A stretch of DNA of 64,000 bases from an uncultured Succiniclasticum sp. (GTDB lineage Bacteria; Bacillota; Negativicutes; Acidaminococcales; Acidaminococcaceae): contig CADCHY010000006.1 of the NCBI GenBank assembly GCA_902801365.1, positions 186,001-250,000 of the forward strand. Direction: 5' to 3'. Position numbers and translations under genes: made by a program. The notes beneath the pieces were generated by a model, which saw nothing but the letters and a program-made list of their open reading frames with translations, had not been told where the DNA came from and searched no databases. Of the stretch, positions 9,599 through 49,807 are shown piece after piece. Each line of letters begins with the position of its first letter. Positions within the stretch are counted from its first letter, which is position 1.

Positions 9599-11068
9599 TT
9601 ATTCTACAATCACCAGCCGCTGTTCTTCAGGAGCCGTAATATGCGGATGGGATGTAAAGTACTCTTCCAGCAGACCCAGGCTGCGGGTGGCAACAACCTT
9701 TGGCATGCCGTTACGGGCGATTTCCGCTTCAGAAATATCCAGTCCGGTCTGCAGGTTCTTGAAATGGAACTGGTGCATGCCTACGCGCAGCGGTTCATCG
9801 TCGCCTATCTCCCGGCCATGCATGGTCAGACTGGTGACTTTTTTCTGCGTTTTATTATAGACGACCCGCAGTCCTTCGGAAAACTGGTAAAACTCCGTGT
9901 GGGCATTGGGGTCAAAGGCTTCGTCCCGCAGCATATACTCCATCATATGGCGGAACTGCCGGCCTGTCACGACGTAACGGTACACTTCTTCGTCAAACGG
10001 CTCCATTTCCTGTAAATCCTGCAGGGTCATGACAGGTCCCAGGTATTGGCTGCGAAGACTTCCGGAAGCATGCAGCATGATATCCAGTCCCAGGGAATCC
10101 TTAAAAGCATCGGCAAAGATTTTGCCTACCGGGGTCTCACGGTTGCGGACGGGATGGGCATACCGTTCCGGGAAGCGGGTCAGGATCCGGTTGTATTTTG
10201 TTTCCGTTACATGCTTGTATTTCCCGATAATGTTTTTAAGCACTTCATCCTCCGGGCAATACTCCGGCGTTACGGGGATCAGCTGCCAGGTGTAACTGTC
10301 AATCGTGTTACGGTCGGTATCTACCATAATATCGAAACGTCCAATCTGGTCCGTGCCGGACGCTGCCTGTACAATGGGGATACCGTTTACTTCAACAGGC
10401 TTTGCCAGCAGTGTATGACTGTGTCCCCCGATAATCAGGTCCACGCCCCAGCGGGGATCCAGTAAAGCAGCCAGCTGCTGGTCCGCTTCAATGCCGATAT
10501 GGGTCAGCAGCACCGTAAAATCAATATCTTCCGTCCGATAGGCGTCGCAGATGCGCCCCACTTCCGCCGCGGCCTCATGGATGTCCACCAGAGTGCCGAT
10601 CAGTTCTTCCAGTTTGGTCTTCTGCAGCACTTCTTCTGTCAGAATGCCTATAAACAGCACCTTCATACCTCCGGTCTCCAGGATCCGGTGGGAACGGAAC
10701 AGACGCCGGCCATTGTGCTTCAGGTACATATTGGCGTTGATGATAGGAAAATTGGCGCATTTTTCCAGAAACAGAAGATGGGCCAGCCCGTAATCCACTT
10801 CGTGGTTGCCGATGGTCACCACATCCGGAGCCAGCAGGTTCATGATCTCAATGGTGGAAACTCCCTTGAATTCCGAATCGATCAGGGATCCCTGAAACAT
10901 ATCCCCGGCTATGGCATAGATTACGTTCTCTTCTTCCCGGCGCACCTTGTTGACGTAACCGGAGAGCATAGAAACACCGCCCACCAGTTTATCGTCTACT
11001 TTTTCTACCAGGAAATCACCGTGCAGATCGTTAGAATGTAGTAAAGTGAGTTTCTTCAAATGCTTCAT
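9599..11068 (-). CDS. bifunctional metallophosphatase/5'-nucleotidase (YunD-like, cytoplasmic)
   Basis: This 489-residue protein has the calcineurin-like metallophosphoesterase domain followed by a 5'-nucleotidase C-terminal domain. Metal-binding motifs are visible in order: HSNDLHGDF, AGDMFQGS, GNHEVDYG, LTHIG and GGHSHT. The C-terminal half (PVGKIFADAFKDSLGLDI onward) is the substrate-binding type domain. No signal peptide is present, unlike periplasmic UshA, so a cytoplasmic YunD-like role on nucleotides or related phosphoesters is more likely. AAGGGA precedes the ATG at 11068. It follows another phosphoesterase gene with a gap of only 21 bp, so the two are probably co-transcribed. Confidence 0.88.
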   Translation of the reverse strand: MKHLKKLTLLHSNDLHGDFLVEKVDDKLVGGVSMLSGYVNKVRREEENVIYAIAGDMFQGSLIDSEFKGVSTIEIMNLLAPDVVTIGNHEVDYGLAHLLFLEKCANFPIINANMYLKHNGRRLFRSHRILETGGMKVLFIGILTEEVLQKTKLEELIGTLVDIHEAAAEVGRICDAYRTEDIDFTVLLTHIGIEADQQLAALLDPRWGVDLIIGGHSHTLLAKPVEVNGIPIVQAASGTDQIGRFDIMVDTDRNTIDSYTWQLIPVTPEYCPEDEVLKNIIGKYKHVTETKYNRILTRFPERYAHPVRNRETPVGKIFADAFKDSLGLDIMLHASGSLRSQYLGPVMTLQDLQEMEPFDEEVYRYVVTGRQFRHMMEYMLRDEAFDPNAHTEFYQFSEGLRVVYNKTQKKVTSLTMHGREIGDDEPLRVGMHQFHFKNLQTGLDISEAEIARNGMPKVVATRSLGLLEEYFTSHPHITAPEEQRLVIVE

Positions 11069-11089
11069 CGTATCCCTTTCTGTCTTTCT

Positions 11090-11800
11090 CTATGCCTGCC
11101 AGACATATTTTGTAATCACATCGATGCAGGACAGGCGGCCGCCTTCCAGATAGGACCCCGTATCACAAAGAATAATATGATTATCCCGTATCACAGGGTA
11201 CATGTCCCAGGTGATACCTTTAAACATATACTGCAGATTCTGGATGGGAGTATGCCCTACCACGATTGTTTCTTTGCCATGATAACCTGTATAGAACTTT
11301 TCCCGGATCCAGATCAGGTCCTTTTCCTGCTGCTGTTCCAGAGGTACATCCGGATCCACACCGGCATGACAGAAATAATAATCGCCGGCGCGGTAGTATA
11401 AGGGCAGGTTCCGGGCATAGTCCAGCCGGTTCTGCAGGGCTTTGCCTCCCAGTTTCTGCAGCTGGGGAAGCGTCTTGTCCCCGCCGTAGGTGAGCCACTG
11501 ACTGGTCCGGTTCAGCAGACGGATGTCAAGTTCATCCTTTGCTTTTGCCAGCGCATCGAAATAATCCAGCATCTCCCGCTCGTGATTGCCCATCAGGTAG
11601 ATAACGGACTCAGGATGCTGTTTCTGAAGATGCATCACATAATCGAAGCACTGCAGTGATTCCGGACCCCTGTCGATCAGGTCGCCCAGGAAAACCAGGA
11701 TGTCCTGGGCCGGATCGAATTTGATGCGGCGCATCAGTTTTTTTAATTTTTCATACTGCCCGTGCACATCTCCCACGGCCATGACGCGGCTTCCAATCAT
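11090..11800 (-). CDS. metallophosphoesterase, serine/threonine phosphatase-like
   Basis: This 236-residue protein of the PPP-type phosphoesterase family has VGDVHGQY, LGDLIDRGPES, MGNHEREML and a downstream HAGVDPD plus VGHTP histidines, which together form a binuclear metal site. Size and motifs resemble bacterial PrpE/ApaH-like enzymes; the substrate (phosphoprotein or dinucleoside polyphosphate) cannot be decided. The start at 11800 is preceded by AAGGGG; a longer frame upstream lacks a ribosome-binding site. It precedes the nucleotidase gene in the same operon. Confidence 0.85.
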   Translation of the reverse strand: MIGSRVMAVGDVHGQYEKLKKLMRRIKFDPAQDILVFLGDLIDRGPESLQCFDYVMHLQKQHPESVIYLMGNHEREMLDYFDALAKAKDELDIRLLNRTSQWLTYGGDKTLPQLQKLGGKALQNRLDYARNLPLYYRAGDYYFCHAGVDPDVPLEQQQEKDLIWIREKFYTGYHGKETIVVGHTPIQNLQYMFKGITWDMYPVIRDNHIILCDTGSYLEGGRLSCIDVITKYVWQA

Positions 11801-11985
11801 AATAACCCCTTTTGTGTTGACTGTTTGCGGAAATCCGGCTGCTTTATTACAAGCGCGCGACACATTCCGCCGGTGTTTTTCTGTTGTGTTTCTGATACAA
11901 TATTATTAAACATATTTTAACACATATTTTACCCGATTTTCTTTTTTTAGTAAATTGTCATAGTTTTGTCAAAAATAATGATTAT

Positions 11986-12017
11986 ACTGACCATAGATAA
12001 AACTGACCATAGATAAA
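11986..12017. repeat. tandem 16-bp repeat (2 copies)
   Basis: ACTGACCATAGATAAA occurs twice head to tail without any mismatch (11986-12001 and 12002-12017). It lies in the divergent gap between the phosphoesterase operon and the secreted protein gene, 53 bp before the latter's ATG. It could be a duplicated operator or simply a slippage duplication. Confidence 0.85.
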
Positions 12018-12069
12018 TAAGAATTCTGTTTTGAATTGTAATCACGAAGATCAGACGGAGGTAACGCCC

Positions 12070-12978
12070 ATGAAAAACTGGAAAATAACCGCAACCGGAC
12101 TTCTGGCTGTTTCCATCCTGGCAGCAGGTCTTGCCTGCCCCATCCCTGCCGGCGCGGCAGCCATAAATCAAAAACTGACAGTGAATACGGAATATAAAGA
12201 GGGAGCCGTGGTTCCTGCTTCCCAGACGGAAGCCGTGCGTCTGGCTGCCAGAGAGAAAGCCTTGTCACAGTATTATATCACCAGCGGCAGAAAGCTGGAA
12301 AAAGCGGTCGCTATGCTGGAAGGCCTGTCTCCGCAAAAGACCGGCCTGGATGCAAGAAAATCCTATTTTTACCGTATGGACAAAAGCCTGTCGGGCAATT
12401 ATTTCCAGCACGTAAAAGCATTCACGCCGGATATGGAAACGCTGGCAGGCGAATACTTTATCGCGAAGGATAACAGCTGTGTATTCCGCCGTTTCCCGGA
12501 AAACGGGAATTTCGAAATGCTGGAAGGTTCTACGGAAAAACTGCTGAAAAAAGTAGAAATTTACCGCGCCAGCGGGATCATTCCGTTAAAAGGAAACGGA
12601 AAGGTTCTGGTACGTGTGCCCGGCAACCTGCCCTACGATCTTACCCTGACCAGTCTTACGGAAAACATAGCCACAATCACCGAAGAAAACGGCCAGCTGA
12701 TCATTAACGGCAATGCCCGCGGATACGCGGATGTTCTGGCTGAGGTGGAAATCGGCGGCTACGTGAAAACGGAAAAGCTCCGGTTTGCCGTTATGGACAG
12801 CCAGGATATCGCCGCTTATGAAGCCCGGCAAGTCTATGTCCCTGTATATGTCGGCTGGGACTGGGGCTGGGGATGGGGCTGGGACCGCCCGCACCATCAC
12901 CCAGGGCCCCCGCCACGGGGACCACGTCCCGGCGGCGGACCCAGACCGGGCGGCGGCCATCATGGACCAAGGAAATAA
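12070..12978 (+). CDS. secreted protein with Trp/Gly- and His/Pro/Gly-rich C-terminal tail
   Basis: I do not recognise a named family. The 302-residue product has a typical signal peptide (MKNWK, hydrophobic core, PAGAAA cleavage region near residue 30) and a mixed alpha/beta body. After the body come a short run of alternating W and G (VGWDWGWGWGWD) and a tail rich in His, Pro, Gly and Arg. The ATG at 12070 has GGAGGT 7 nt upstream; the longer frame from 12031 lacks this. Location is probably periplasm or cell surface. The His-rich tail could bind metal, which is inference. A terminator follows. Confidence 0.75.
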   Translation: MKNWKITATGLLAVSILAAGLACPIPAGAAAINQKLTVNTEYKEGAVVPASQTEAVRLAAREKALSQYYITSGRKLEKAVAMLEGLSPQKTGLDARKSYFYRMDKSLSGNYFQHVKAFTPDMETLAGEYFIAKDNSCVFRRFPENGNFEMLEGSTEKLLKKVEIYRASGIIPLKGNGKVLVRVPGNLPYDLTLTSLTENIATITEENGQLIINGNARGYADVLAEVEIGGYVKTEKLRFAVMDSQDIAAYEARQVYVPVYVGWDWGWGWGWDRPHHHPGPPPRGPRPGGGPRPGGGHHGPRK

Positions 12979-13007
12979 AGACAAATGAATTAAACCTGAT
13001 CATAAAG

Positions 13008-13046
13008 TTAAGGAATCACCCTTGTGGTGGTTCCTTAATTGTTTTC
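13008..13046 (+). terminator. Rho-independent terminator
   Basis: The 13-nt arms TTAAGGAATCACC and GGTGGTTCCTTAA pair with one G-T, with a 5-nt loop, and are followed by TTGTTTT. It lies 29 bp after the secreted protein gene. Confidence 0.8.
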
Positions 13047-13112
13047 AGGAGCTGTTCTATTTTTCGTATCTAATTAATAATCTAATAATCTTTCTGCAAA
13101 GAACCGATTGTA

Positions 13113-13121
13113 TGGTATAAT
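13113..13121 (+). promoter_or_regulatory. extended -10 promoter
   Basis: TGGTATAAT is a perfect extended -10. It stands about 84 bp before the ATG at 13205, with no clear -35 box. Confidence 0.55.
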
Positions 13122-13204
13122 AATTATGAAATAAAGAAAATAAAACAAATCAAATATAAAAATGTCAGGATTTGGAATTGTCATTTCAGAGGAGGCAAAT
13201 CATC

Positions 13205-13717
13205 ATGGAAGAAAAGAAAGTCTACACCGAAGAAGAGATTGAACAGCTGGCGGAAAAGGCATCCCAGAATGCCATGGAACATTTCAAACACGGTCTGAAC
13301 TGCGGCGAATGCGTACTGCAGGGGTTCCTGGACCTGGGTATCAGCGAATACCCGCCTGAAATCATTGCCCTGGTTTCCGGCATGGGCGGCGGCATGGGCT
13401 TCACCAAACACACCTGCGGCGCGGTAAACGCCGGCATGGTTGTGATCGGCAGCAAACAGGGCCGTAAAAATCCTTATGCCAAAGAAACTTTTGCGGAACG
13501 GGTGGATGAACTGCATCATGACGAGACCGGCATCTATCCCCGCCACGCAGTTTATGTGAAAGATGTCATCACGGAATACGGCACCATCGAATGCCGCGAC
13601 CTTTGCTTCCCCTTTGATGAATCAACCAAAGAAGGCATGAAAGAACGGGCCCGCAACTGCAAGAAGATCATCGGCTTCTGCGCGAAAGAAGCAACAAAAG
13701 CCGCATTGAAGAAATAA
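13205..13717 (+). CDS. C_GCAxxG_C_C family redox protein
   Basis: This 170-residue protein fits the C_GCAxxG_C_C family, found in anaerobes and often next to oxidoreductases. It has NCGECV (Cys33, Cys36), the GMGGGMGFTKHTCGAVNAG core (Cys71), then Cys130/Cys134 and Cys152/Cys159, seven cysteines in all. They could form disulfides or ligate a metal or cluster; the biochemical role is unknown. The ATG at 13205 has GGAGG 9 nt upstream. It has its own extended -10 promoter and a strong terminator, so it is monocistronic, upstream of a thiol/disulfide enzyme gene. Confidence 0.82.
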   Translation: MEEKKVYTEEEIEQLAEKASQNAMEHFKHGLNCGECVLQGFLDLGISEYPPEIIALVSGMGGGMGFTKHTCGAVNAGMVVIGSKQGRKNPYAKETFAERVDELHHDETGIYPRHAVYVKDVITEYGTIECRDLCFPFDESTKEGMKERARNCKKIIGFCAKEATKAALKK

Positions 13718-13751
13718 GATTGTATTGAAGTAATATTGTTTAACTGCAGTC

Positions 13752-13784
13752 ACCGGTATCAGCGTTTTACTGATACCGGTTTTT
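13752..13784 (+). terminator. Rho-independent terminator
   Basis: The perfect 11-bp stem ACCGGTATCAG/CTGATACCGGT, with a 7-nt loop, is followed by TTTT. It ends the C_GCAxxG_C_C gene. Confidence 0.88.
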
Positions 13785-13887
13785 ATAACAAAAGACAGCT
13801 GCATCCTGCAGCATTCGCGAAAGAACAGATTTCATGCATCGCGAATTGCATAAACACATAAATGAACGGACAGAAGGAGGAAGTGTT

Positions 13888-15585
13888 TTGAGCAAGCGAA
13901 TCTTAGTGGTCGGTGGTGTGGCCGGTGGCGCATCGGCGGCAGCCCGGGCCCGCCGTCTGGACGAACACGCGGAGATCATTGTGTTTGAACGGGGACCCCA
14001 CGTTTCCTTTTCCAACTGCGCCCTGCCCTATTTCTTAAGCCGAACCGTGGCGGACAGCGCGGACCTGGTGATGATGGATCCCGCCCAGTTCAAGAAGAAA
14101 TATAACATTGAGGTGCGAACGGAAAACGAAGTCATCGCCATCAACCGGGAAGAAAAGACCGTAACGGTAAAGAATCTTACGGACGGCAGAGAATATACAG
14201 AAACATACGATGCCCTGATCCTCTCCCCCGGCGGCGAACCCATCCTTCCCGGCGCCATCGAAGGCATCCGCAACGAAAACGTCTTTGGCATCCGCAACGT
14301 GGTGGACATCGCTAAGCTTGATGCCTGCATCCGTGACCGTAAGGCAGAGAATATTGCTGTCGTCGGAGGAGGTTTTATCGGCTGCGAGATTGCGGAAAAC
14401 CTGGTGCATGCCGGTTACAAGGTCACCCTGATCGAGGCCATGGATCAGGTCATGATGCCTTTTGATTACGACATGGCCCAGATCCTGCACAAAGAGATGC
14501 TGGAAAACGGTATGACCCTGATTTTAAAAGACGGGGTGAAAAAGATTGGCAGTAATGCCATTGAACTGGCCAGCGGCAAACAGGTCAAAGCCGACGCTGT
14601 GGTGATGGCCGTGGGTATCCGTCCGGAAACCACCCTGGCCAAAAACGCCGGACTGGCCATCGGTGAAACCGGCGGCATCAAAGTCAACGCCAACTTCCAG
14701 ACCAGCGACCCTTCCATTTATGCTGTAGGCGATGCCATCGAGGTGTTCAGCCGCCTCACCCGCAAACCCATGCGGCTGGCCCTGGCCTGGCCCGCCCAGA
14801 TGGAAGCACGGGCCGCGGCGGATCATATTTACGGGATCCGCAATCAGCAGAAAGGATTTATCGGTTCTTCTGTCATCCGTATCTTCTCTTTGCTGGCTGC
14901 CAGTACCGGCCTGAACGAAAAAGCGGCGAAAGCAGAGGGGATACCTTATGAAATTGCCTATGTAATTCCTTCCGACAAGGTGAGCCTCATGCCCGATGCC
15001 CACCCTATTCATGTAAAACTGGTTTTTGAAACACCGACAGGGCGTCTGTTAGGAGCCCAGGCCATCGGCAAGGGTGAAGCAGACCGCCGCATTGATGTGA
15101 TTGCCGCCCTGATCTCCATGGGCGGGACCCTGGAAGATCTGAAGAACATGGAACTCTGTTACGCTCCGGTGGTAAGCACTGCCAAAGACGCAGTGAACAT
15201 GGCGGCGCTGGTGGGGCTGAACCTGCTCCACGGCGTGTACCGTCAGGTTCCTCTTACTAAGGTGCGTGAGCTGGTAGAAAGCAAGGCCTGCATCATCGAC
15301 GTGCGGGAACCGGGCGAATACAGTGCCGGCCATCTGCTGAACGCAATTAATATTCCGTTAAGCCAGCTGCGGCAACGCATGGACGAGATTCCCAAAGATA
15401 AGCCTGTCTACCTCCACTGCCGTTCCAGCCAGCGGAGTTACAATGCCATCATGGCTTTGCAGCACTGCGGTTTCGATAACCTGTATAACATTGCCGGATC
15501 CTATCTGGCCATCTGTCTGTATGAGTATCCTCAGGATGTGCTCTTCAACCGGGAAAAAATCGTAACAGCATATAACTTTAAATAA
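13888..15585 (+). CDS. CoA-disulfide reductase-like FAD oxidoreductase with rhodanese domain
   Basis: This 565-residue pyridine nucleotide-disulfide oxidoreductase has an FAD dinucleotide fold (VVGGVAGGASAAARARR), a single active-site cysteine (Cys44 in SFSNCALPY) and an NAD(P)H domain (VVGGGFIGCEIAE). A FAD-binding YAVGDA segment, a dimerisation domain and a C-terminal rhodanese domain follow; the rhodanese catalytic cysteine is about residue 511 (LHCRSSQRS). Relatives reduce CoA disulfide, CoA persulfide or polysulfide with NAD(P)H. The start is TTG at 13888 with GGAGG 7 nt upstream; a longer frame to 13834 lacks a site. A role in thiol or sulfur balance in this anaerobe is likely. Confidence 0.88.
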   Translation: MSKRILVVGGVAGGASAAARARRLDEHAEIIVFERGPHVSFSNCALPYFLSRTVADSADLVMMDPAQFKKKYNIEVRTENEVIAINREEKTVTVKNLTDGREYTETYDALILSPGGEPILPGAIEGIRNENVFGIRNVVDIAKLDACIRDRKAENIAVVGGGFIGCEIAENLVHAGYKVTLIEAMDQVMMPFDYDMAQILHKEMLENGMTLILKDGVKKIGSNAIELASGKQVKADAVVMAVGIRPETTLAKNAGLAIGETGGIKVNANFQTSDPSIYAVGDAIEVFSRLTRKPMRLALAWPAQMEARAAADHIYGIRNQQKGFIGSSVIRIFSLLAASTGLNEKAAKAEGIPYEIAYVIPSDKVSLMPDAHPIHVKLVFETPTGRLLGAQAIGKGEADRRIDVIAALISMGGTLEDLKNMELCYAPVVSTAKDAVNMAALVGLNLLHGVYRQVPLTKVRELVESKACIIDVREPGEYSAGHLLNAINIPLSQLRQRMDEIPKDKPVYLHCRSSQRSYNAIMALQHCGFDNLYNIAGSYLAICLYEYPQDVLFNREKIVTAYNFK

Positions 15586-15648
15586 AAAAATCAGTATTTC
15601 TGTAACAAATATAACACAATTGGTGCTTCCTTTTTTAGATTTTACGAG

Positions 15649-46592: not shown

Positions 46593-46601
46593 TGATATAA
46601 T
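46593..46601 (+). promoter_or_regulatory. extended -10 promoter for esterase/ATP-grasp operon
   Basis: TGATATAAT, an extended -10, lies 48 bp before the GTG at 46650. Confidence 0.55.
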
Positions 46602-46649
46602 AAACATGAGCAAACACTAGTCACACTGTAACTTTTATTATGAAGGAGC

Positions 46650-47402
46650 GTGTATCATTTCAGCAACCACCTCTGGCGCAACATGAACATACGCGTTTAC
46701 GGTACCAAAGGCTGGCCGCTGCTGGTGTTCCCAACCCAGGACGCCATGTGCGACAACTATGAAAACTTCGGGATGATCGACGAACTGTCCGAATTCATTG
46801 ACAACGGCCAGTTCCAGCTGTTCTGCGTAGATACGGTAGATCAGGAAAGCTGGTCCGACAACTACGGCGACAAGTTTCTCCGGGCCGAGCGGCAGGAAAA
46901 TTATTACCGCTACATCACCGAAGAAGTAGTCCCCCTGATCCACGAACACAACCACAGTGACTGGCGGCCTCTTACCACAGGCTGCAGCATGGGCGCCACC
47001 CACGCAGCCATCGTGTTCCTGCGCCGTCCCGACCTGTTCGAAGGTGTCATCGGTTTCTCCGGCTGCTACGACGCCCACTATTTCTTCGGGGCCTGGATGA
47101 ACAACACCCTCTACGACAACTCCCCCGCCACCTTTATGCCGAACCTGGCTCCGGACCACCCCTACATCAGGCTGTTCAACCAGCGGTGCATCGTTTTCTG
47201 CGTAGGCCAGGGAGCCTGGGAAGACGAAGGCATCCGCACGCAGCGTATCCTGGACGAATCCTTCCGGGCCAAAGGCATCGCCGCCTGGTGTGATTTCTGG
47301 GGTTTCGACGTGAACCATGACTGGCCCTGGTGGAAGAAGATGTATCAGTACTTCCTCCCCCACGTGCTGAACCACTGCCGTGTACACGGACTGGAAGACT
47401 AA
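46650..47402 (+). CDS. alpha/beta-hydrolase esterase (putative esterase family)
   Basis: This 250-residue protein has the esterase-family alpha/beta-hydrolase pattern: MNIRVYGTKGWPLLVFPTQ at the N-terminus, the nucleophile elbow GCSMGATHA (Ser113), VIGFSGCYDA, and a C-terminal acid/His region in GFDVNHDWPWWKKM. There is no signal peptide. The GTG at 46650 gives the family-like N-terminus but AAGGAG lies only 1 nt upstream, and an in-frame stop is two codons before. The ATG at 46683 is the alternative, so the start is uncertain. It lies 15 bp upstream of an ATP-grasp gene; the two probably act in one pathway. Confidence 0.8.
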   Translation: MYHFSNHLWRNMNIRVYGTKGWPLLVFPTQDAMCDNYENFGMIDELSEFIDNGQFQLFCVDTVDQESWSDNYGDKFLRAERQENYYRYITEEVVPLIHEHNHSDWRPLTTGCSMGATHAAIVFLRRPDLFEGVIGFSGCYDAHYFFGAWMNNTLYDNSPATFMPNLAPDHPYIRLFNQRCIVFCVGQGAWEDEGIRTQRILDESFRAKGIAAWCDFWGFDVNHDWPWWKKMYQYFLPHVLNHCRVHGLED

Positions 47403-47417
47403 GAAAGGACCCATCCT

Positions 47418-48680
47418 ATGAACTTTGTTTTTATCTCCCCCCAATTCCCCCGTACCTACTGGAACTGGTGCGACCGTCTGAAAAAGAACGGCGCCAATGT
47501 GCTGGGTATCGGCGACACGCCCTATGACCAGCTGGACGACGCGTTGAAAAACGTCCTTACAGAGTATTACAAAGTAGGCACCCTGGAAGATTACGACCAG
47601 GTGTTCCGCGCTGTAGCTTTCTTCTGCTTCAAATACGGCAAGATCCACTGGCTGGAATCCAACAACGAATACTGGCTGGAGCATGACGCCATGCTGCGGA
47701 CCGATTTCAATATCCTGTCCGGACCGGACGTGGATGAGATCCAGGCCTACCGCAGCAAAACCGCCATGAAGCCCTACTATAAAAAGGCCGGTGTGCCTAC
47801 CGCCAGGCAGGCGCCTGTCACCACCCTGGAAGAAGCAAAAGACTTCATCAAAAAGGTTGGCTACCCCGTCATCGTAAAACCGGAATACGGCGTAGGCGCC
47901 GCGGCCACTTACCGGCTGGAAAACCGGCACGAACTGGAAGATTTCTTCTCTGACTTACCGGAAGATTCCTATGTCATGGAAGAATTCGTGCCCGGCTGGA
48001 TCTGCTCCTACGATGCCATCGTGGATTCCCACAGCGAGGTATTGTTCGAATCCATGAGCATCTCCCCGCCCATCATGGACATCGTGAACAACCAGACGGA
48101 ACTGATTTTCTACGTGCCGCCCTATGTGGAGCCCCAACTGCAGAAACGGGGCCGCGCCACCGTTAAGGCCTTTGGCGTGAAGAGCCGTTTCGTGCATATG
48201 GAATTCTTCAAGCTCACCAAAGCCAAGAAAGGCCTGGGCAAAGAAGGCGACTTCGTGGGACTGGAAGTCAACATGCGTCCGGGCGGCGGCTACATGCCCG
48301 ACATGATGGACTTCGCCCACTCCACCGACGTGTACCAGCTTTGGGCCGACATGATCTGCTTTGACGAACGGCGGCTTCCGGAAAATCCGGACCAGCAGTA
48401 CTGCGTCTTCTTCGGTCAGCGTGACCACTTCCATTATCTCCACAGCCAGCAGGACATTATGGCAAAATATGGCAGTCGTATCAAAATGAACGAACGCATG
48501 CCCGAAGTCCTTTCAACGGCCATGGGCAACCAGATGTACACCGCCCTGCTTCCCACGAAAGAAGACATGGACGAATTCGTGAGATACGTAGGTGAAAAAG
48601 AAGAAGACAAACCGGACGGCAAGGAAGGTATCGACTACGAAGGCGCCTACGAGCATGAAGAGTGCCACCAGGCCGACTGA
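47418..48680 (+). CDS. ATP-grasp ligase of unknown substrate
   Basis: This 420-residue ATP-grasp enzyme has a preATP domain (NFVFISPQFPRTYWNWCDRL, NVLGIGDTPYDQL), the ATP-binding domain (KTAMKPYYKKAGVPTARQ, YPVIVKPEYGVGAAATYRL, VMEEFVPGWICSYDAIVD), and the Mg-binding GLEVNMRPGGGYMPDMM with Glu and Asn ligands. A C-terminal region includes CVFFGQRDHFHYLH. Such folds couple ATP to acyl-phosphate-based carboxylate-amine or carboxylate-thiol ligation. The substrate cannot be inferred. AAGGAC precedes the ATG. It forms a two-gene operon with the esterase and ends at a strong terminator. Confidence 0.85.
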   Translation: MNFVFISPQFPRTYWNWCDRLKKNGANVLGIGDTPYDQLDDALKNVLTEYYKVGTLEDYDQVFRAVAFFCFKYGKIHWLESNNEYWLEHDAMLRTDFNILSGPDVDEIQAYRSKTAMKPYYKKAGVPTARQAPVTTLEEAKDFIKKVGYPVIVKPEYGVGAAATYRLENRHELEDFFSDLPEDSYVMEEFVPGWICSYDAIVDSHSEVLFESMSISPPIMDIVNNQTELIFYVPPYVEPQLQKRGRATVKAFGVKSRFVHMEFFKLTKAKKGLGKEGDFVGLEVNMRPGGGYMPDMMDFAHSTDVYQLWADMICFDERRLPENPDQQYCVFFGQRDHFHYLHSQQDIMAKYGSRIKMNERMPEVLSTAMGNQMYTALLPTKEDMDEFVRYVGEKEEDKPDGKEGIDYEGAYEHEECHQAD

Positions 48681-48724
48681 ACCAGCTGACAGATAGCATC
48701 AAGATTATAATACCAATACATGAG

Positions 48725-48757
48725 AAAAAAGCGACGGAGCAACTCCGTCGCTTTTTT
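48725..48757. terminator. bidirectional terminator
   Basis: The 15-bp perfect stem AAAAAAGCGACGGAG/CTCCGTCGCTTTTTT with a CAA loop serves the ATP-grasp operon on plus and gpsA on minus. Confidence 0.93.
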
Positions 48758-48811
48758 CGCCGGCTAAACAGGATTTTTAAAATCGCATAGGTATATTTTA
48801 TATCCTCAACT

Positions 48812-49807
48812 TTATCCCTTTCGTTCAGCAGTCTTATCCCGGCCCATCAGACGGGCCACTTCAGTTCGGGGATCAGCATTATGATTTACGATAGCATCTA
48901 CAGCCCGGACAATGGGCATATCCACATTATATTTGTCAGCGTAGGCGATGGCCGCGGGAAGGGCGTTGATTCCTTCCACCACCATGCCAACCCGTTTCAC
49001 AGCGGCCGCCGTCTCATAACCCTGACCAATGAGGTACCCACAGCGATTGTTCCGGCTGTGCATGCTTGTTGCAGTCACAATCAAGTCCCCCATGCCCGCC
49101 AGGCCGGCAAAAGTATCCCGGGCGCAGCCCAGCTTTTCTCCCAGCCGGGCAATCTCCGCCAGGCCACGGGTAATAAGAGCTGCCTTAGCGTTGTCGCCGT
49201 ATCCAAGACCTGCTGACATACCCGCCGCCAATGCAATAATGTTCTTCATGGCGCCACAGAGCTCCACGCCCTTCACATCCGTGTTGGTATACACCCGCAG
49301 ACAGGAATTCATGAACACATCCTGCACTTTTTCCGCCACGTTGAGATCCTCACAGGCGGATACAATGGCACCAGGCAGGTCCCGGGCCACCTCTTCTGCA
49401 TGGGTAGGGCCGGAAAGGGCCACCACTTTCACCTCCGCCTTCACTTCATCACGGATTACTTCGGATAAGGTCATCAGCGTTTCCGCTTCGATGCCCTTGG
49501 CCACATCCACTATGATCTGCCCGTCATGAATGAACGCATTGGCCAGTCTGGCCGCAGACCTTACAAAGACAGAAGGAACGGCAAAGACCAGCAGGTCCTT
49601 GTCTCTGCATACTTCTTCCATTAATTTTGTAAACTTAACCGCTTCCGGAATAATCATATCCGGCAGGTTCTTCTGTGTGCGGGTAGTTTCCAGCCGGTCG
49701 ATTGCCTCCGGGTGGGGCGACCACACCCGAACTCCGTGGCCGCTGTTGGAAAGCATCCTTGCCAGAGCCATGCCCCAAGTCCCCGCCCCGATAATACCTA
49801 TGCGCAT
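48812..49807 (-). CDS. gpsA: NAD(P)+-dependent glycerol-3-phosphate dehydrogenase
   Basis: GpsA reduces dihydroxyacetone phosphate to sn-glycerol-3-phosphate for phospholipid synthesis. The 331-residue protein has the NAD(P) motif IGAGTWGMALARML, LLVFAVPSVFVRS, VVALSGPTHAEEVARDLPGA, the catalytic ELCGAMKNIIALAAGMSAGLG and TFAGLAGMGDLIVTATS. AGGAGA lies 8 nt before the ATG and an extended -10 is at 49877-49885. Confidence 0.95.
   Translation of the reverse strand: MRIGIIGAGTWGMALARMLSNSGHGVRVWSPHPEAIDRLETTRTQKNLPDMIIPEAVKFTKLMEEVCRDKDLLVFAVPSVFVRSAARLANAFIHDGQIIVDVAKGIEAETLMTLSEVIRDEVKAEVKVVALSGPTHAEEVARDLPGAIVSACEDLNVAEKVQDVFMNSCLRVYTNTDVKGVELCGAMKNIIALAAGMSAGLGYGDNAKAALITRGLAEIARLGEKLGCARDTFAGLAGMGDLIVTATSMHSRNNRCGYLIGQGYETAAAVKRVGMVVEGINALPAAIAYADKYNVDMPIVRAVDAIVNHNADPRTEVARLMGRDKTAERKG

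Follow-up and report, generated by a model that had tools for sequence, protein, structure and literature searches.

The window, a stretch of 64,000 nucleotides from an uncultured Succiniclasticum sp., a rumen anaerobe, carries two genes on the same strand, 15 bp apart, that encode a putative esterase and an ATP-grasp protein (hereafter the ligase). Their upstream neighbor is an ATPase gene on the opposite strand. The locus comprises the following features:

46593–46601, + strand: extended −10 element TGATATAAT, shared by the majority of ten Succiniclasticum-type loci, that of the window among them
46643–46648, + strand: Shine-Dalgarno AAGGAG, as read in the sequence
46650–47402, + strand: esterase gene, GTG start, 250 aa, GCSMG elbow, PF00756
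47418–48680, + strand: ATP-grasp ligase gene, ATG start, 420 aa, LEVNMRPGGG
~48724–48758, no strand assigned: intrinsic terminator, probably bidirectional, −25.6 kcal/mol, z −6.1
48812–49807, − strand: gpsA, converging on the pair from downstream

The sequence-only reading of this DNA had described an esterase plus ATP-grasp pair, and both open reading frames are confirmed by Pfam matches and catalytic residues. The private promoter it proposed is borne out by the conservation of the extended −10, though a consensus promoter scan found no match in the region of 46593 and no consensus −35; beyond the −10, no shared operator was seen 5′ of the esterase in the ten loci. The strong terminator is also real, as its folding energy and z-score indicate. 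A terminator scan overlooked it; the likely reason is that the A/T stretches on either side pair with each other, so that it may work in both directions and serve gpsA as well. Weak Rfam matches all fell on the terminator hairpin, and no riboswitch or T-box was found in 20 relatives, seven sulfur-operon loci, or the window. An anti-phage defence role was ruled out, as no PADLOC model matched the locus.

The start of the esterase gene appears damaged in this genome. Nine related loci of the Succiniclasticum type have the esterase ATG about 10 nt past the Shine-Dalgarno sequence; compared with these relatives, the window has a 27-nt deletion at 46653/46654, between GCGTGT and ATCATTTC, by which the usual ATG and the first codons are lost. 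The nearest in-frame start that is left is a GTG, 1 nt after AAGGAG. The remainder of the gene is intact and differs from that of its relative L007 by 24 silent and 2 replacement codon changes; judged from its codons, the gene apart from its start is under purifying selection. Translation of the esterase may be weak in this genome, unless the deletion reflects a fault in the assembly.

Families, folds, and active-site residues

The esterase matches PF00756 with 47.2 bits (cut-off 22). Its residues S113, E191, and H223 are conserved across relatives and probably form the catalytic triad. The predicted structure (pLDDT 96.5) has S-formylglutathione hydrolases, antigen 85C (Ag85C), and esterase D as its nearest PDB folds. 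PF00756-type esterases are also active on acyl-glycans and as acyltransferases.

The ligase matches the ATP-grasp family CPSase_L_D2 (30.2 bits, cut-off 19.8), and no fewer than 48 of 50 relatives keep its residues K154, E188, E262, E283, N285, and R287. The folds nearest to its predicted structure (pLDDT 91.7; rows from plasmid records were left out of the structure predictions) are those of RizA, YwfE/BacD, and BL00235, with an E-value of 4e-27 and TM-scores of 0.68/0.73 against RizA (4wd3); a profile search likewise related it to the L-amino-acid ligase type (E 1e-18). The closest solved structures share only 14–18% identity. BacD itself was ruled out, since the ligase scores 30.1 bits with the BacD model NF053745, far under the cut-off of 850; in NCBIfam, no model came near its cut-off for either the ligase or the esterase. 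Going by the modeled fold, the ligase probably joins amino acids using ATP. BacD has been reported to make many Cys-dipeptides (PMC6588663).

Neither the esterase nor the ligase could be placed in a family with an established but unrelated function, which was one of the two outcomes that would have counted against the sequence-only reading, and the logic of a ligase combined with an ester hydrolase, as put forward from the sequence alone, is compatible with the families and predicted folds of both.

Conservation and spread of the pair

Co-occurrence of the two families across genomes had been named beforehand as a test of the pair, and the pair withstands it. Among 100 dereplicated loci that extend far enough on either side of the ligase, 71 have an adjoining esterase, in the orders esterase–ligase and ligase–esterase as well as divergently. 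On the ligase tree, 23 or more changes of arrangement are counted, a figure that also takes in loci with no esterase detected. Adjacency has thus been kept despite much reshuffling and the pair is therefore a functional unit, whose conservation we regard as nearly certain. At 21 of 109 loci, the module is enlarged by a second PF00756 esterase (EstB, as opposed to the adjoining EstA). In a neighbor scan of frames of at least 60 codons, only the esterases and general metabolic genes were recurrent; a graspetide (RiPP) synthetase cluster would be marked by a conserved precursor peptide gene beside the ATP-grasp gene.

The ligase is present in 11 of the 14 genomes of its own genus, including Succiniclasticum ruminis DSM 9236, whose ligase is 96% identical to that of the window. 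It was further detected in 65/151 Selenomonadaceae-type genomes, 109/200 genomes of another family, and 7/247 Bacteroidales genomes, as well as in Treponema, Spirochaetales, Anaerolineaceae MAGs, Peptoclostridium, and Rhizobiaceae; pairing with the esterase is also seen in the latter two. Overall, the pair spans Negativicutes, Clostridia, Bacteroidales, Spirochaetes, and Rhizobiaceae, and occurs in hundreds of anaerobic gut bacteria. Its parts are known enzyme superfamilies, and a literature search found no published description of the pair.

Some loci carry additional copies of the ligase. At L034 and L142, two ligase paralogues lie one behind the other; EstA is divergent from them, and EstB is placed at a greater distance. 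In the Selenomonadaceae-type genus g339, a ligase paralogue shares a single ORF of about 795 aa with an HD-GYP domain (L234:5946-8339 and L237:5444-7822), and seven genomes of this genus have open frames of about that size. The two copies that were read are both HD-GYP c-di-GMP-phosphodiesterase-like fusions with no esterase, and a ligase–esterase fusion of the Rosetta-stone kind was rejected on this ground.

Sulfur and cysteine operons around the relatives

Neighboring genes were initially surveyed with no hypothesis in mind and then checked by Pfam and NCBIfam. In Bacteroidales (L105/L168 and L169), the pair lies among genes for a family 2A encapsulin (SrpI), a cysteine desulfurase, a CysE-like hexapeptide acetyltransferase, CysK, ThiS-like and ThiF-like proteins, and DsrE2. 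The encapsulin/desulfurase operons of these loci and of L127 also hold CysE-like, CysK, ThiS-like, ThiF-like, JAMM-like, and DsrE2 genes; these seem to form a set for cysteine synthesis by way of a sulfur carrier, grouped about a compartment that stores sulfur. The encapsulin occurs in 6 of the 247 Bacteroidales genomes and coincides with the ligase in two, both times within 3 kb; the other four of the six SrpI genomes sampled are without the ligase.

Other architectures place the pair beside sulfur uptake and assimilation genes. In selenomonads (L154, L093, and L261), it stands between genes for a sulfate-binding protein, CysT, CysW, and CysA on one side and for AprA, a ferredoxin, CysD, and CysN on the other. 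In L176 and L248, metNIQ, a Cys/Met PLP enzyme (MGL/CGS), and DUF2292 precede the pair and a sulfate-binding protein gene comes after it; such a gene also follows the pair in Selenomonas ruminantium ATCC 12561 (L068), 164 bp from the ligase. In L052–L054, the ligase is followed by a Cys/Met PLP enzyme. The selenomonad locus L250 holds nitrogenase-like K-D-H-B genes (10930–15635), the pair, DUF2292, O-acetylhomoserine sulfhydrylase (OAHS), and CysK; the KDHB set looks similar to methylthio-alkane reductase, and the locus may serve sulfur salvage in a comparable way. In L268, genes for IscS, IscU, OAHS, a cystine-type ABC transporter, an Rrf2 regulator, and the pair are all co-directional. Finally, L113 carries EstA, EstB, the ligase, a glutamate–cysteine ligase (GCL) after a 12-bp gap, and then a second ligase. 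The sulfur genes seen most often beside the pair are those for CysK and for OAHS/CGS-type enzymes. Most loci, including the window, have no sulfur gene nearby. The earlier statement that the genes have no biosynthetic neighbors thus holds for the window but fails for many relatives, in which the pair sits inside sulfur/cysteine assimilation operons. Its description as self-contained is not supported: given this metabolic context, the isolation seen here is a local accident.

We compared these frequencies with random regions. With one arbitrarily chosen representative per cluster, a sulfur gene was found in 10/109 loci versus 2/40 random regions, which is not significant (p 0.33). Counts weighted by cluster were then used instead, with the set of random regions unchanged. 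At the level of species clusters, 7.5 of 110 had a core sulfur gene within 4.5 kb where 1.1 were expected (p 5e-5, or 0.0016 with the background doubled), an enrichment of about 5- to 7-fold over a small control. Clusters at 75% identity gave 4.7/70 versus 0.7 expected (p 0.001, or 0.016 with doubled background), and those at 70% a weaker 2.9/53 versus 0.6 (p 0.018, or 0.096). The p-values are indicative, because a single gene in 780 kb defines the background rate and the list of sulfur genes was drawn up after the first examples. In a second sample, with the gene list fixed beforehand, 9/60 loci were positive versus 1/40 in the reused controls, two of the nine positive loci repeating or closely resembling earlier ones. 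The state of sulfur linkage changes at least ten times on the ligase tree.

These data bear on an alternative explanation, namely that the pair makes and breaks an amino-acid conjugate or dipeptide unrelated to sulfur, the sulfur operons being incidental or reflecting shared regulation only. This would suit the majority of loci that are without sulfur genes, among them those of Peptoclostridium, Pararhizobium, and Succiniclasticum, the lack of significance of the simple locus counts, and the fusion of a related ligase to an HD-GYP domain in one genus. It is harder to reconcile with the repeated changes of linkage on the tree, the operon-level placement in several unrelated architectures, two of which (L169 and L176) turned up after the hypothesis had been written, and a weighted enrichment that persists down to 75% identity clusters (p 5e-5 to 0.016) and weakens at 70%. 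We consider a product of this kind unlikely, and a link of the pair to sulfur and cysteine metabolism highly probable.

Proposed role and comparison with known systems

We propose that the pair is a metabolic module serving cysteine and sulfur assimilation, mostly in anaerobes, and consisting of the ligase ("grasp") and EstA, with EstB in some lineages. The ATP-grasp protein would convert a carboxylate to its acyl-phosphate and couple this to an amine, supplied either by cysteine itself or by an acceptor that contains cysteine. A small Cys-peptide or conjugate would result, and the cells, which apparently have neither glutathione nor bacillithiol, would use it as a low-molecular-weight thiol or a store of cysteine. 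The esterase-D-like hydrolase would cleave ester or S-acyl (thioester) adducts and so recycle the compound, in parallel to the action of S-formylglutathione hydrolase on glutathione. We infer the presence of cysteine in the substrate, the formation of a peptide bond, and the function given to the esterase from the folds, the active-site residues, the sulfur context, and the absence of PF04262 and BshC from the genome studied here, taken together. For the pair as a cysteine-metabolism accessory that makes a Cys peptide or conjugate and hydrolyzes its ester or thioester adducts, we estimate a probability of roughly 40%; thiol chemistry of the pair, taken by itself, is likewise a tentative proposal.

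A different use of the same chemistry would be catabolic: the ligase could attach an amino acid as a handle to scavenged organosulfur for uptake or processing, and the esterase would later free the carrier, by analogy with the glutamylation and deglutamylation of amine catabolism. In keeping with this idea, genes near the pair include a sulfate permease, a cystine-type ABC transporter, metNIQ, the nitrogenase-like KDHB cluster, and OAHS, that is, uptake and scavenging genes rather than redox enzymes. However, the encapsulin/desulfurase/CysE/CysK operon and the GCL operon concern cysteine and not scavenging, and the neighbor scan found no oxidoreductase or lyase constantly beside the pair. On balance, we think such a catabolic role improbable.

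The presence of GCL at L113 raises the question of glutathione. A stand-alone GshF-type GCL without the GshB half (L113:7940-9259) lies there between two ligase paralogues, in one operon with EstA and EstB, and the L052 genome has a GCL of the same kind near its ligase. The ligase could accordingly take the role of GshB and add an amino acid to gamma-Glu-Cys, the esterase being a true S-formylglutathione hydrolase. The ligase that adjoins GCL in L113 is, however, a divergent paralogue on the ligase tree. In a profile search of the genome studied here, neither GCL of the family PF04262 nor BshC (PF10079) was found. GCL was also absent from 8/10 test genomes, the exceptions being those of L113 and L052, and from 199/200 genomes of the family in which 109/200 have the ligase. 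Because of this last result, gamma-Glu-Cys is not a general substrate of the ligase. With GCL nearly always absent, glutathione synthesis was ruled out as the general role, and we regard a glutathione-type synthetase as very improbable.

Equally remote is the idea that the esterase is an acyltransferase resembling Ag85 or homoserine acetyltransferase, which would supply CysK or O-acetylhomoserine sulfhydrylase with an O-acyl amino acid, using a carboxylate activated by the ligase: CysK and OAHS/CGS-type enzymes as leading sulfur neighbors, Ag85C among the nearest folds, and a weak profile match to homoserine O-acetyltransferase speak for it, but the encapsulin operons already have a CysE-like gene and the MetX match spans only the nucleophile elbow (39 positions).

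Returning to the cysteine-metabolism accessory, its most far-reaching form would have the pair produce and regenerate a low-molecular-weight thiol, or a peptide for cysteine storage, that is new to the literature and takes the place of glutathione or bacillithiol in anaerobic gut and rumen bacteria, with Selenomonas, Succiniclasticum, a clostridial family, and Prevotella relatives as hosts; in some Bacteroidales, the module would work together with sulfur-storing encapsulins. We hold this extended version to be doubtful. The ligase is carried by roughly one in two of the genomes sampled, both in a clostridial family and among those of the Selenomonadaceae type. Since it turns up time and again within cysteine and sulfur operons, it becomes testable which thiol or cysteine reserve is used by anaerobes without glutathione and bacillithiol. 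The pair offers a short list of candidate genes for this purpose, and Selenomonas ruminantium is among the cultured hosts.

Several known systems resemble parts of the module. Family 2A encapsulin (SrpI)/cysteine-desulfurase operons have the pair between the desulfurase and the CysE/CysK genes in some Bacteroidales; published accessory genes of these encapsulins are serine acetyltransferases and rhodaneses, and the term ATP-grasp is absent from the paper (PMC8346489). With the glutathione synthetases GshF/GshB, the module shares an ATP-grasp ligase beside GCL in L113, whereas nearly all hosts tested are without this partner. The esterase resembles S-formylglutathione hydrolase/esterase D (7yvt, 3fcx, and 6jzl) in its alpha/beta-hydrolase fold (TM up to 0.75), its GxSxG elbow, and a histidine motif of the H-x-W-x-W style. 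It scores 17.8 bits with the S-formylglutathione hydrolase model TIGR02821 (cut-off 281.7), however, and its host is without a PF04262 glutamate–cysteine ligase. The ligase corresponds to RizA (4wd3), YwfE/BacD (3wnz and 3vmm), and BL00235 (3vot) over the whole length of the ATP-grasp fold including the N-terminal domain (TM 0.61–0.73), at only 15–18% identity, and shares with them the ATP and Mg residues and a likely acyl-phosphate chemistry leading to an amide bond. Whereas the literature links the known L-amino-acid ligases to dipeptide or antibiotic synthesis in Bacillus, this ligase family is associated with an esterase and with sulfur operons.
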